DNA of 64,000 nt from Acidobacteriaceae bacterium. GTDB lineage: Bacteria; Acidobacteriota; Terriglobia; Terriglobales; Acidobacteriaceae. Both the position numbers and the translations under genes were made by a program. This document shows positions 2,119 through 5,535 of the stretch, piece after piece; within the stretch, counting starts at the first letter, position 1; each line of letters starts with the position of its first letter. The stretch is from the NCBI GenBank assembly GCA_003156805.1, contig PMHV01000052.1:131255-195254 (forward strand), in the 5' to 3' direction. The notes under the pieces were generated by a model. It was given only the letters and a program-made list of their open reading frames with translations. It was not told the origin of the DNA and did no database searches.

Positions 2119-3522
2119 ATGGCAGTCTCGATCAACCGCGGCACCCGCATTGAATCCGACAGCATGGGAAAGATCGAAGTCCCGGCCAACGTGTATTGGG
2201 GAGCGCAGACGCAGCGCTCTTTGCTGCACTTCAACATTGGGCGCGACACCATGCCGCCGGAATTGATTCACGCGTTTGGCGTGCTGAAGAAGGCGTGCGC
2301 GCTGGTGAATCAGGACCTGGGTAAGCTTTCGGCCGACAAGGCCAAGCTCATTGTGCAGGCGGCCGATGAGGTGATTGCCGGCAAGCTGAACGAGCAATTT
2401 CCCCTGCGCATCTGGCAGACGGGCAGCGGCACGCAGACCAATATGAACGTGAACGAGGTCATCTCGAACCGCGCTATTGAAATCGCGGGCGGCGAGATGG
2501 GATCGAAGAAGCCGATTCATCCCAATGACGACGTGAACATGTCGCAATCGTCGAACGACACGTTTCCGGCGGCGATGCACATCGCGGCGGCGGAGCGCGT
2601 GAAGCGTGCGCTGATTCCGGCGATTAAGAACGTGCACGATGCGATCGCGGCCAAGGCGAAGGAATTTAACGATGTCGTGAAAATCGGGCGCACGCATTTG
2701 CAGGATGCCGTGCCGCTGACCTTCGGGCAGGAGTTTGGCGGCTGGGCCAGTTTGCTGGAGCGCGACATCAAACGCCTGGAGCAGGTGTTGGACGGGCTTT
2801 ATGATCTGGCGATTGGCGGAACCGCGGTGGGGACGGGGTTGAACGCGCATCCGGAATTTGGCGAGCGCGCGGCGAAGAAGATTGCCGAACTCACGGGACT
2901 TCCCTTCCGCTCGCATGGCAACAAGTTCGCGGCGCTCTCGGCGCACGACGAGATTGTGTTTGCGCAGGGCGCGATGGAAACGCTGGTCGCTTCGCTGATG
3001 AAAATTTCCAATGACATTCGCTGGCTGGCTTCAGGTCCGCGATGCGGGCTGGGCGAATTGTCGATTCCTGAGAATGAGCCTGGCTCGTCGATTATGCCGG
3101 GCAAGGTGAATCCGACGCAGTGCGAAGCGATGACCATGGTCTGCGTGCAAGTTCACGGCGCGACTGCTGCGGTGGGATTTGCCGGTTCGCAAGGGAACTT
3201 CGAGCTGAACGTTTACAAGCCGGTGATTATCTATAACTTCCTGCATTCGGTGACGCTGATCGCGGACGCGTGCCACGGGTATGTCGAGTACATGATCAAG
3301 GGCATCGAGGTTGATCGCGCCAAGGTCGACTGGTACGTAAAGAATTCGCTGATGCTGGTGACGGCGCTGGCGCCGAAAGTGGGATACGACAAAGCGGCGA
3401 AGATCGCCCATACCGCGCACGTGGAACACAGCAGCCTGCGCGAAGCGGCGCTGAAGCTGGGATATCTCACGGGCGAGGAGTTCGACCAGTTGATGAGGCC
3501 GGAGAAGATGACGCGACCATAG
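2119..3522 (+). CDS. fumC: Fumarate hydratase, class II
   Basis: Converts fumarate and water to L-malate in the TCA cycle; a cytoplasmic homotetramer in this family. The protein is 467 residues from the ATG at 2119, the usual length for FumC. It carries the fumarase/aspartase signature [11 protein letters not shown] at about residues 320-330, the [10 protein letters not shown] and [13 protein letters not shown] stretches of the substrate site, and [16 protein letters not shown]. An in-frame GTG at 2065 would add 18 residues with no family resemblance; the ATG at 2119 follows an AGGA ribosome-binding site and starts the conserved R-x-E-x-D-S-x-G-x-x-x-V-P region. It stands alone, with a repeat-filled gap downstream. 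The iron-sulfur class I enzyme is ruled out by sequence. Confidence 0.97.
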
Positions 3523-3558
3523 GTAGTGGCTCAGTTCGAAAAGGGGAGGCTGCGTGCG

Positions 3559-3611
3559 CGCGGGAGATCCCTCGTCCCGCTGGTGAAAACGCGGGACTTC
3601 GGGATGACGCC
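3559..3611 (+). repeat. Hairpin repeat family 1, copy 1
   Basis: Contains a stem GTCCCGC / GCGGGAC around the loop TGGTGAAAAC, followed by the constant tail TTCGGGATGAC. Other copies have GCCCCGC / GCGGGGC in the same place, a paired change that keeps the stem. Confidence 0.85.
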
Positions 3612-3709
3612 GGAGGGGTTCAATCGTTGGAGATTTCAAATTGAGCCACTACCGGTTTTCAGCACAGCGGGCAGAGTCATCTCGTCTCTTTCTGCTGCTA
3701 CCATCGCCC

Positions 3710-3789
3710 CATTCGACTCCTTCGCTTGCGCTCAGTCGCTCAGGGCAGGCTCTCACCCGGCTGAAGTGCGCCGGGTTTCGGGATGACGC
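3710..3789 (+). repeat. Hairpin repeat family 1, copy 2 (diverged)
   Basis: Has the arm TTCGACTCCTTCGCTTGCGCTCAG, then CAGGGCAGGCTCT, then a different stem ACCCGGC / GCCGGGT, and the same tail TTTCGGGATGAC. The stem sequence differs from copy 1 but is still self-complementary. Confidence 0.8.
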
Positions 3790-3825
3790 CTTCGGAGAGG
3801 GAGTCTCTAGAGAAAAGGGTTCAGC

Positions 3826-4215
3826 ATGCGGAAGCCCAAGCTATTTCACGTTTACATCATGACGAACCGGACCCGTTCTCATGTTCTGTATACGGGAGTG
3901 ACGGGCGACTTGAGCCGCCGCGTGTTTCAGCATAAGAACAAACTTGTCCCTGGCTTCACAAGCCGGTACAACTTGACCCGGCTTGCGTACTACGAGTGTT
4001 TCTTTTACCCCGACGCGGCGATTGACCGTGAGAAAGAAATTAAAGGTTGGCGGCGAAGCAAGAAGATACGGCTGGTTGAGTCCATGAACCCTCGCTGGGA
4101 CGACTTGGCCGAGCGATGGAGCGAGATGTATAAACCTGAGACGATCGGTGATCCGCGCGAGATCCCTCGCCCCGCTGGTGAAAGCGCGGGGCTTCGGGAT
4201 GACGCCTCTAAATAG
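3826..4215 (+). CDS. Small GIY-YIG family nuclease, embedded in hairpin repeats
   Basis: 129 residues. The start of the domain reads FHVYIMTNR followed by LYTGVTGDLSRRV and a basic region ending QHKNK, the YhbQ/URI-like version of GIY-YIG. The conserved glutamate region is AAIDREKEIKGWRRSKK. Family members are single-domain endonucleases that cut DNA with one metal ion; the cellular role of this subfamily is not settled. The ATG at 3826 follows AAAGGG. The oddity is the C-terminus: the last ~20 residues (from DPREIPRPAGE) are encoded by a copy of hairpin repeat family 1, and two more copies lie just upstream. The last 8 bases overlap the convergent transporter gene. A truncated relative of this gene is found at 5313-5375, also joined to a repeat copy. 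Confidence 0.88.
   Translation: MRKPKLFHVYIMTNRTRSHVLYTGVTGDLSRRVFQHKNKLVPGFTSRYNLTRLAYYECFFYPDAAIDREKEIKGWRRSKKIRLVESMNPRWDDLAERWSEMYKPETIGDPREIPRPAGESAGLRDDASK
4156..4203 (+). repeat. Hairpin repeat family 1, copy 3, inside a coding end
   Basis: Starts CGCGAGATCCC, has stem GCCCCGC / GCGGGGC and ends TTCGGGATGAC. It forms the 3' end of the GIY-YIG reading frame. Confidence 0.88.
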
Positions 4216-5182
4216 ACTTCTGCAGTGTGTCATTCGCTGGGGCCGTTTCTTTCGCGGGCGACTCTTTTTCAGCTATCTTCTTTTTCGGCGTCGTCGTGAT
4301 GACGACGACACTTACCAGCACGAGGAAAGTTCCCAGAACTGTCCGCGCGCCCAGCGCTTCCCCGCCCAGAAAATATCCAAGCGCCACCGCGATCACCGGG
4401 TTCACATACGCGTAGGTGCCGACTTTGGTTGGCGACTCGTGATGGATGAGCCAGACATAGGCGGTGAAGGCGACGATGGAGCCAGCGACGATCAGATAGA
4501 CCAGCGCGAGCCAGGCGCGAGCCGACACTTCCCGTGCATGAAAGCCGCGGAACTCGCCGAACATGGCTGCGGCAAGCAGGAGCAGGATTCCCCCGACCAG
4601 CATTTGCGCTGCCGAGCTCATGACCTTCGATTGTGGCAAACTCAGCTTGCGGGAGAGAACCGAGGCGAGCGACCAACTGATCGCACCCACCACAAGGGCA
4701 AGCGCGCCCGACCTTTCAATGGGAGCGTCGCCAAAGCCTACCGAGCGGCTGACTAGAACTCCTACTCCTGCGAGACCGACCAGGAGCGCGATTCCCAGGC
4801 GGAAGGTGAGCCGCTGCGTGCGCAAGATGAGAATTTCGGCGAGGGCGGTGAAGACGGGAATGGTCGCCAGCATGACCGCCGTAATTCCGGAGGGGACGCG
4901 CTGTTCGGCCCAGAAGACCAATCCGTAATCCACTAGAAAAATGAGTGCCGCGAGCAAGGTCGCCGATGCCCATTCGCGGCGGGAGGGTGAAGCGGTGCCT
5001 GTGGCGCGCATCCAGGCGTAGAGCACAATGCCGGCGGCGAAGAATCGCATTCCGGCTAGCAGGAGCGGCGGTACCTCGCGCACACCGATGCGAATCGCCA
5101 GAAAGGTCGAGCCCCAGACAAAATAAATGATGGCAAAGGCTAGCAGAATCTTCCAGGTTGAGGGGCGAGTTGTGGCGGCCAT
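4208..5182 (-). CDS. EamA/DMT-family membrane exporter
   Basis: 324 residues with about ten hydrophobic segments arranged as two EamA repeats, starting at the ATG at 5182. The first repeat opens with FVWGSTFLAIR, the typical drug/metabolite transporter start, and the second repeat has AISWSLASVLSRK and YAYVNPVIAVALGYFLGGE, which match the YedA/RhaT side of the family. Members export amino acids, purines or other small metabolites by proton exchange; the substrate cannot be told from the sequence. The C-terminus is a lysine/glutamate-rich cytoplasmic tail. The 3' end overlaps the GIY-YIG gene tail by 8 bases, so the two genes converge. Confidence 0.93.
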   Translation of the reverse strand: MAATTRPSTWKILLAFAIIYFVWGSTFLAIRIGVREVPPLLLAGMRFFAAGIVLYAWMRATGTASPSRREWASATLLAALIFLVDYGLVFWAEQRVPSGITAVMLATIPVFTALAEILILRTQRLTFRLGIALLVGLAGVGVLVSRSVGFGDAPIERSGALALVVGAISWSLASVLSRKLSLPQSKVMSSAAQMLVGGILLLLAAAMFGEFRGFHAREVSARAWLALVYLIVAGSIVAFTAYVWLIHHESPTKVGTYAYVNPVIAVALGYFLGGEALGARTVLGTFLVLVSVVVITTTPKKKIAEKESPAKETAPANDTLQKSI

Positions 5183-5312
5183 GGGAGATTCTCTGTGAGG
5201 GCCCGTACAGACGCAAGACCCCTTTCGCTAGTTAGATAACCGGAGAGGGCGGACGGGAGCAGAATACGCCTACAAAAAGTGTTCGTGCGATTTGCGCTTT
5301 TTGCTTGTGGGA

Positions 5313-5375
5313 GAAACCCCGACGCAGCGATTGATCGCGAAAAGAAGATCGGGGCTGGCGCAGATGTTCGGTACA
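5313..5375 (+). pseudogene. Remnant of a GIY-YIG nuclease gene
   Basis: Translated on the plus strand this reads NPDAAIDREKKIGAGADVRYTRDP, matching YPDAAIDREKEIKGW in the intact gene at 3826-4215. The next bases jump to something like the end of that gene and then into the same hairpin repeat. It looks like an internally deleted copy of the gene-plus-repeat unit. The similarity stretch is short, so the call rests on the shared motif and the shared repeat junction. Confidence 0.6.
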
Positions 5376-5448
5376 CGCGAGATCCCCTTCGGCTTCGCTC
5401 AGGGCAGGCTCTCGCCCCGCTGGTGAAAACGCGGGGCTTCGGGATGAC
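5376..5448 (+). repeat. Hairpin repeat family 1, copy 4 (full form)
   Basis: CGCGAGATCCCC, then the arm TTCGGCTTCGCTCAGGGCAG, then stem GCCCCGC / GCGGGGC and tail TTCGGGATGAC. It is nearly identical to the copy at 31284-31356, 26 kb away. Confidence 0.92.
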
Positions 5449-5535
5449 GGCTTCTGATGCAGGTTCCGGCAGAGCGACCGAAATGGTCTCAGGTCTGAGG
5501 CTGAGGTCCAAGGTCTGAAGTCCGAGGTCTGCTTC

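Follow-up and report, generated by a model that had tools for sequence, protein, structure and literature searches.

A GIY-YIG nuclease gene bracketed by GTC-tagged hairpins: a candidate REPtron-like mobile unit in Acidobacteriaceae and other bacteria

In a 64,000-nucleotide stretch of an Acidobacteriaceae genome (assembly GCA_003156805.1, contig PMHV01000052.1; this whole stretch is called the window), a small gene encoding a single-domain GIY-YIG nuclease lies among copies of a hairpin that carries an unpaired GTC tag at one end. Do nuclease and hairpins belong together, and does the enzyme move the hairpins? An earlier note on this DNA had tied the nuclease to its hairpin by analogy with repetitive extragenic palindromic (REP) elements and their RAYT transposases. 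The association held, through the matching of flanking hairpins, stem covariation and clade pairing; movement of the unit, in turn, is suggested by comparing species whose sites carry it with species whose sites do not. We consider it likely (probability about 0.7) that the nuclease is the mobilising, cognate enzyme of a superfamily of GTCAT.../CGTC-tagged palindromes and that the unit is REPtron-like, that is, comparable to a RAYT gene with its REPs. The best reading of the window is then one copy of such a mobile unit (3710-4215) and one remnant (5316-5451).

Two sets of loci were analyzed, using our own G and L numbers for genomes and loci. A GIY-YIG match was present in 72 of the 121 genomes searched in the window's class; the class set holds 115 loci, six of them from the window genome, taken in score order to about E 3e-23 with some split pieces skipped. 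The phyla set holds the best 80 of 573 confirmed stretches from a protein-based scan of GTDB genomes, and covers 26 named phyla, with five loci lacking a phylum name and 11 belonging to Acidobacteriota. One locus is common to both (L150 in the phyla set is L041 in the class set). Palindromes were scanned as GTC plus a stem starting with AT, and symmetric palindromes were counted on both strands.

The architecture of hairpin, GIY-YIG gene and hairpin, with tags mostly outward, is established. The window genome (5.03 Mb, 75 contigs) has seven GIY-YIG matches, namely six single-domain genes and one within a 689-codon frame, probably UvrC; an outward-tagged palindrome lies near five of the six, the exception being L001. 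Nuclease genes without hairpins, which the earlier note had named as evidence that would speak against it, are not the norm: a tagged palindrome in any orientation lies within 400 bp at 82 of the 115 class loci, and an outward-tagged hairpin within 450 bp at 65 of the 80 phyla loci, on both sides at 49. When Acidobacteriota are set aside, the latter figures are 56 and 44 of 69, and at least one locus with an outward hairpin was found in 25 of the 26 named phyla.

Palindrome density within 350 bp of the gene is 2.68 per kb in the class set and 5.07 per kb in the phyla set, against backgrounds beyond 750 bp of 0.24 and 0.42 per kb, and in DNA free of open reading frames (ORFs) it is 3.52 per kb within 300 bp versus 0.26 per kb beyond 600 bp. 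The tag itself is specific: within 200 bp of the gene there are 178 (class) and 208 (phyla) GTC-tagged palindromes, compared with 2-7 and 1-6 for the permuted tags CTG, TCG, GCT, TGC and CGT, and more distant bins of the class set hold 0-12 palindromes per strand each. Two further control tags, run on the class set, gave 8 (GAC) and 59 (CAG) within 200 bp; tails reading GATCTG may be the source of the CAG excess.

Hairpins on the two sides of a gene also resemble each other. In neighbouring pairs with one member on each side of the gene, the tags face outward in 28 of 46 cases (class set) and 38 of 57 (phyla set), and the distance between left and right hairpin of the same gene is 0.069 versus 0.259 for shuffled partners in the class set (n=42) and 0.138 versus 0.348 in the phyla set (n=49). 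Covariation was measured at the three stem positions after AT, where pairing was not presupposed as it is for the AT anchor: complementary fractions were 0.64/0.59/0.67 versus 0.37/0.51/0.39 shuffled (301 pairs, class set), and 0.78/0.77/0.77 versus 0.41/0.44/0.44 (332 pairs, phyla set). Protein and hairpin distances are correlated (Mantel r 0.34, 0/1000 permutations, N=74). On a FastTree nuclease tree, counted over loci that have a hairpin and whose two hairpins agree in type (116 of 195 rows), the stem type changes 24 times versus a shuffled mean of 47; inside the window's genus there are 4 changes versus a shuffled minimum of 7 (n=45, 0/500), indicating that stem type tracks the nuclease more than the host.

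The same pairing was sought across genomes, in tests that ignore phylogeny. A GCAT-type 15-mer is present in 10 of 10 genomes with the L002 nuclease clade (membership at E of at most 1e-36; G033 has only a fragment) versus 23 of 111 others, and in G026 all four GCAT-type copies flank the nuclease gene. The link is weaker inside the genus (9/9 versus 21/36, p 0.016). For the window-type hairpin, counted by the pattern TTCRGGATGAC in genomes of the genus, the median is 33 copies with a nuclease match of at least 64% identity (n=13) versus 23.5 in the rest (n=32; one-sided p 0.012), and 33 with the window clade (n=13) versus 15 where no nuclease was detected (n=9; one-sided p 0.015). Equal abundance in relatives without the nuclease, which would have told against the proposal, is therefore not what the medians indicate; hairpins are nevertheless present there, and in some of these genomes they are numerous, as discussed below.

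Sites without the unit exist in relatives, as a check proposed in the earlier note had anticipated, both at fumC-eamA in the window's genus and at sufB-sufC in Azospirillum. In the window, the nuclease ORF lies between fumC, which ends at 3522, and an eamA-type transporter gene (4208-5182, minus strand). An EamA search found a match in 38 of 45 genomes; from 30 fetched loci, 20 were compared side by side together with L041. The gap was measured between the ends of the fumC and EamA matches and so omits about the last 20 eamA codons. This gap is 56-94 bp in seven genomes (G044, G033, G040, G012, G027, G038 and G008), and 698 bp in G004, 757 bp in the window and 1585 bp in G024, all three with the nuclease unit. 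Intermediate states are seen as well: a solo hairpin without nuclease gene (G023, G034, G025), an inverted hairpin pair without gene whose second member is imperfect by eye (G037, 340 bp), and a decayed hairpin apparently kept, also by eye (G003, 136 bp). Other DNA also inserts here, since G035, G017, G016, G019 and G021 have gaps of 238-1349 bp with no nuclease match, and the gap is perhaps a hot spot. Two loci of other species, L236 and L252, carry other small inserts in it, which by eye are AbrB-like or toxin-antitoxin-like.

At the sufB-sufC site of Azospirillum lipoferum 4B, 617 bp separate the two genes and the interval contains the unit, flanked on each side by hairpins (the second member of the upstream pair is imperfect by eye); the gene-free gap measures 91 bp in A. 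ramasamyi, 87 bp in A. oryzae, 129 bp in sp. B510 and 55 bp in A. thermophilum. In Shinella, a nuclease gene lies between amidohydrolase and carbon-nitrogen hydrolase genes and is missing in S. zoogloeoides XJ20, in which the two neighbours overlap. As some 0.8 kb of other DNA also occupies the Shinella interval, this is not a clean test. No clean empty site was found at the R. tumorigenes, CIAT894 or Neorhizobium loci, and in the comparison of G091 with G106 and G113 only one flank matched. Plasmid polymorphism allowed no base-exact insertion to be read, as neither two 50-kb stretches of R. etli pA nor two stretches of S. meliloti 1021 pSymB had convincing hairpins. Taken between species, the sites with and without the unit suggest that it has moved.

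Outside the two sets, matched tagged hairpins lie near the nuclease gene at nine of 15 scanned loci from a plasmid collection. Among viral contigs, a single peptide-pattern scan of IMG/VR yielded 10 confirmed relatives, and tagged hairpins lie near some of them. On a Planktothrix agardhii plasmid (L261) a GIY-YIG unit with stacked partial hairpin copies lies between MmeI restriction and DISARM drmA genes. The GIY-YIG gene of L260 lacks GTC hairpins and is followed downstream, at about 3460-3860, by a different repeat; this is common to many of the rows listed among 347 plasmid records that matched, most of them from Rhizobium and Sinorhizobium.

The features of the window locus are collected in Table 1.

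Table 1. Elements at the nuclease locus, in window coordinates (MITE, miniature inverted-repeat transposable element)
Feature	Position	Strand	Remarks
MITE-like element	3522..3653	.	132 bp; terminal inverted repeats 3522-3541 / 3634-3653 (GGTAGTGGCTCA...TGAGCCACTACC); houses hairpin 1
Hairpin copy 1	3559..3611	-	GTC tag at right end; MITE passenger
Hairpin copy 2	about 3710..3789	-	Upstream hairpin of nuclease unit; composite, extra CTCAGGGCAGGCT-type segment, outer arm degenerate
GIY-YIG nuclease gene, single-domain	3826..4215	+	129 aa; catalytic domain about residues 8-80
Hairpin copy 3	4154..4206	-	3' coding end of nuclease gene; tag directed away from gene
Remnant of second GIY-YIG gene (PDAAIDREK)	5316..5346	+	Similarity to nuclease gene
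Hairpin copy 4	5374..5451	-	Joined to GIY-YIG remnant

The four hairpin copies and three stem versions described earlier are indeed present where they had been placed, the fourth at 5399-5451 within the interval listed for it in Table 1. Copies 1, 3 and 4 have the outer stem ATCCC/GGGAT in common, the left arm of which is degenerate in copy 2; copies 1-3 terminate in GGGATGACGCC and copy 4 in GGGATGACGGC, which correspond to CGTC (the GTC tag) on the opposite strand. The ORF terminates just past copy 3, and a hairpin 49-52 bp past the query end is also found in L041, L044, L045, L049, L070 and L071. A hairpin oriented like copy 2 occupies the corresponding position in the relatives G004 (L049) and G024 (L041); their outward left hairpin is missing in the window, where the MITE lies at about that place instead. 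The DAAIDREK remnant joined to a fourth hairpin is real: it matches nucleotides 182-213 of the nuclease gene at 87.5% (E 6e-7), its PDAAIDREK peptide was recovered by tblastn (E 4e-7), and the hairpin that follows matches at 95% (E 3e-16). It had been proposed as a non-autonomous derivative; it is a decayed second copy. Single-strand folding of the four copies gave z values of -1.60, 0.02, -2.20 and 0.45, which are unimpressive; the case rests on comparison between copies.

Across the genome, the hairpin core TTCGGGATGAC has 36 matches versus 1 for the reversed control, which is not chance; four fall inside the 1.9-kb stretch at issue, and two (L026 and L031) lack the stem and resemble chance matches. 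Of the 36 genomic contexts, 35 were examined for the arms of the MITE, allowing 5 edits: both were found in 13, one in 8 and none in 14, so that in this genome the MITE carries many copies. Its arms are 90% complementary, and the element at the locus recurs elsewhere in the genome; by eye, 8-bp flanking duplications accompany three other copies (L010, L022, L028), and none is seen at 3522-3653. Hairpin copy 1 does precede the nuclease gene, as had been reported, but since it lies inside the MITE, its membership of the nuclease unit is uncertain.

Several further observations concern these repeats. The first base of the MITE arm (3522) is the final base of the fumC stop codon, and another MITE with GGTAGTGGCTCA/TGAGCCACTACC arms and a central GTC-tagged hairpin is located at about 31346 of the window. 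Composite hairpins, in which the outer arm is followed by an additional CTTCGGCTTCGCTCAGGGCAGGCT-type segment, are seen at 3710-3789, 5374-5451, about 31346 and in L009, L016, L020, L021, L024 and L032, and look as if one palindrome sat inside another. At L038 (G000:C13:341414-344737) a Y1 transposase-like gene, apparently with different inverted repeats of its own, adjoins a truncated MITE end (by eye).

The product of the nuclease ORF matched only PF01541 (GIY-YIG, 9e-13), and residues Y10, Y22, R32, E69 and N88, which we take to be catalytic, are invariant among 24 aligned proteins. The ratio of nonsynonymous to synonymous substitution rates (dN/dS) is 0.07 between the window nuclease and its L041 relative and 0.05-0.13 in seven of eight computable pairs, with 0.36 in the remaining one and three further pairs saturated; these values are rough, five of the eight pairs having dS above 1, and point to strong purifying selection. 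The predicted structure (mean pLDDT 87) best matches UPF0213 (1zg2, E 6.5e-4, TM 0.52), the sole match with E below 0.001, followed by Slx1 (6seh, E 2.4e-3, TM 0.47); at the sequence level the only structure matches are the same two (E 0.0098 for 1zg2 and 0.017 for Slx1). An NCBIfam search gave no match and hence no name, the fetched records annotate the family as "GIY-YIG nuclease family protein", and the best-scoring named relative in the GTDB protein-based scan comes from an Acidobacteriaceae metagenome-assembled genome. The label YhbQ-like needs qualifying, since E. coli YhbQ itself is a different protein: it is without the C-terminal motif KGW..KK..NP.W.DL, and its gene is packed tightly between yhbP and yhbS. 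On the nuclease tree, the 26 phyla account for 40 label changes (n=75) versus a shuffled mean of 57.6, a distribution that is structured, with much horizontal transfer.

Which known systems does this unit resemble? The portions available of the study by Di Nocera, De Gregorio & Rocco (2013; PMC3733652) define CGTC palindromes in five phyla, with no Acidobacteria among them, state that these repeats "apparently lack a dedicated transposase", and suggest that their enzyme has since vanished or that other transposases serve; Neisseria dRS3 is equated there with CGTC-1, and A. lipoferum is named among the CGTC species. The same portions describe a CGTC/TGTC end tag, an AT-initial stem, a short tail (often CCA), dispersed copies and inverted dimers. 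The window type has the superfamily's unpaired end tag, AT-initial self-complementary stem and many dispersed copies, and the A. lipoferum 4B locus described above has CGTC-like hairpins on both sides of the GIY-YIG gene. However, the published form, in those portions of PMC3733652, has a stem of 8-9 bp, a loop of 4-5 nt and a tail near CCA, whereas in the window type a 5-bp outer and a 7-bp inner stem combine with a 10-nt loop and the tail CTCGCG. Given this longer, two-part stem, we place it as a relative of the CGTC families and not as a listed one; loci of other phyla, such as L187, L199 and L221, resemble the published form.

REPtrons, as described in the available portions of PMC3733652 and PMC3116915, similarly consist of a small single-enzyme gene flanked by a dispersed palindrome, which also occurs as solo copies and dimers in those genomes and whose type is tied to the enzyme type. 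Their enzyme RAYT is an HUH Y1 tyrosine transposase and their tag GTAG, as opposed to a GIY-YIG nuclease and a GTC/CGTC tag here, and the Y1 genes of the genomes studied here are without the hairpin. The window unit thus resembles a REPtron in architecture, not in membership. With Slx1 and UPF0213/YhbQ, its best matches among solved structures, the modelled nuclease would share the GIY-YIG fold. Homing endonucleases such as I-TevI also tie a GIY-YIG nuclease to DNA mobility; unlike these, the nuclease unit shows no intron, intein or extra DNA-binding domain, and palindromes bracket the gene. A link between GIY-YIG enzymes and CGTC-type palindromes was not found among the papers listed in searches of the open-licence literature, including the available parts of PMC3733652, PMC12306157, PMC6006769 and PMC8266576.

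Gene and hairpins could share a site for other reasons. The nuclease might resolve or limit hairpins, as cruciforms that stall replication, and be kept beside them by selection while another enzyme spreads the repeats. The best fold matches to UPF0213 and the structure-specific Slx1, the purifying selection and the presence of hairpins in genomes without a detected nuclease fit this idea, which we nonetheless hold to be unlikely: a repair enzyme that acts in trans has no need to be flanked by matched hairpins of its own type in inverted orientation, gene and hairpins are jointly absent from the sites of relatives, and nuclease lineages cross phyla. Quite improbable, in our view, is a passive coexistence in which a RAYT/TIRYT enzyme or the DDE-type enzyme of the MITE moves the hairpins, and genes and hairpins accumulate in permissive intergenic DNA or by nested insertion. 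The MITE arms around many window-genome copies, the unrelated inserts in the fumC-eamA gap of other species and the abundance of Y1 transposase genes (Y1_Tnp match in 105 of 121 genomes) would agree with it, yet the density excess persists in ORF-free DNA, and neither left/right matching nor clade-specific stem types would be expected. Moreover, 30 Y1 loci of the same genomes had a single palindrome within 350 bp (0.05 per kb) and palindromes within 550 bp at two loci, with distances running from the Y1 domain and not from the gene ends; measured in this way, the control disfavours RAYT/TIRYT as the hairpin mover.

The position of a hairpin just past or overlapping the 3' end of the gene at many loci would be explained if the hairpins served the nuclease gene as terminators or as stability elements of its mRNA, for example with the nuclease regulating its own expression. 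This is very improbable, because a matched inverted hairpin is often found upstream too and the same hairpin types occur elsewhere in the genome, including the solo copies at fumC-eamA. We see next to no chance that the hairpins are points of cassette exchange, like integron attC sites, with the nuclease as one of many genes between them: gene-less pairs do exist, such as the one at fumC-eamA in G037 and the 25 (class set) and 54 (phyla set) tag-outward pairs within 200 bp, but hairpin types track the nuclease clade.

Several findings weigh against the nuclease as mobilising enzyme. The association is incomplete: a tagged palindrome within 400 bp is missing at 33 of the 115 class loci, an outward-tagged one lies within 450 bp at only 74 (both sides at 42), and an outward-tagged hairpin is missing at 15 of the 80 phyla loci. 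Five of the 15 plasmid loci (L260, L263, L264, L283, L289) are without tagged hairpins, and L287 has them only farther downstream; L283 is the pNL2 gene of N. aromaticivorans, a species listed as carrying CGTC repeats in the available part of PMC3733652. Conversely, G045 has six GCAT-type copies and no detected GIY-YIG match, and three of the nine genus genomes without a match at E 1e-3 carry 37-48 window-type copies (among genomes with no detected nuclease, G005 has 40 and G009 48). Lost nucleases, incomplete assemblies or the MITE could each account for such exceptions. That many hairpin copies of the window genome ride in the MITE also counts against the enzyme. No target duplication is seen at the unit ends at fumC-eamA or sufB-sufC, where junctions have diverged, and no base-exact junction was resolved at these sites or between G091 and G106/G113. 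Finally, to our knowledge GIY-YIG enzymes form no covalent DNA intermediate, which leaves insertion by such a nuclease unexplained.

If the nuclease is nevertheless the mobilising enzyme, each clade would recognise its own hairpin type by tag and stem. The hairpin, extruded as a cruciform or exposed in single-stranded DNA at replication, would be nicked at the tag, much as Slx1-type GIY-YIG enzymes nick branched DNA, and the freed or exposed end could then be copied or joined into a new site through host repair, giving rise to solo hairpins, inverted dimers or the whole unit.

On balance we also favour, with somewhat less assurance, the broader proposal of an unrecognised class of mobile elements in at least 25 phyla, in which a GIY-YIG nuclease, as the only enzyme, moves itself and GTCAT/CGTC palindromes, each clade reading its own hairpin; the repeats so moved would possibly include Neisseria dRS3. 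The data name a concrete candidate enzyme for CGTC-type repeats. DDE, HUH and recombinase enzymes represent the established chemistries of transposition, and if the proposal is true, a further chemistry would stand beside them, in a class of mobile elements with a structure-specific nuclease in place of a known transposase; repeat families of many genomes would then be explained at once.

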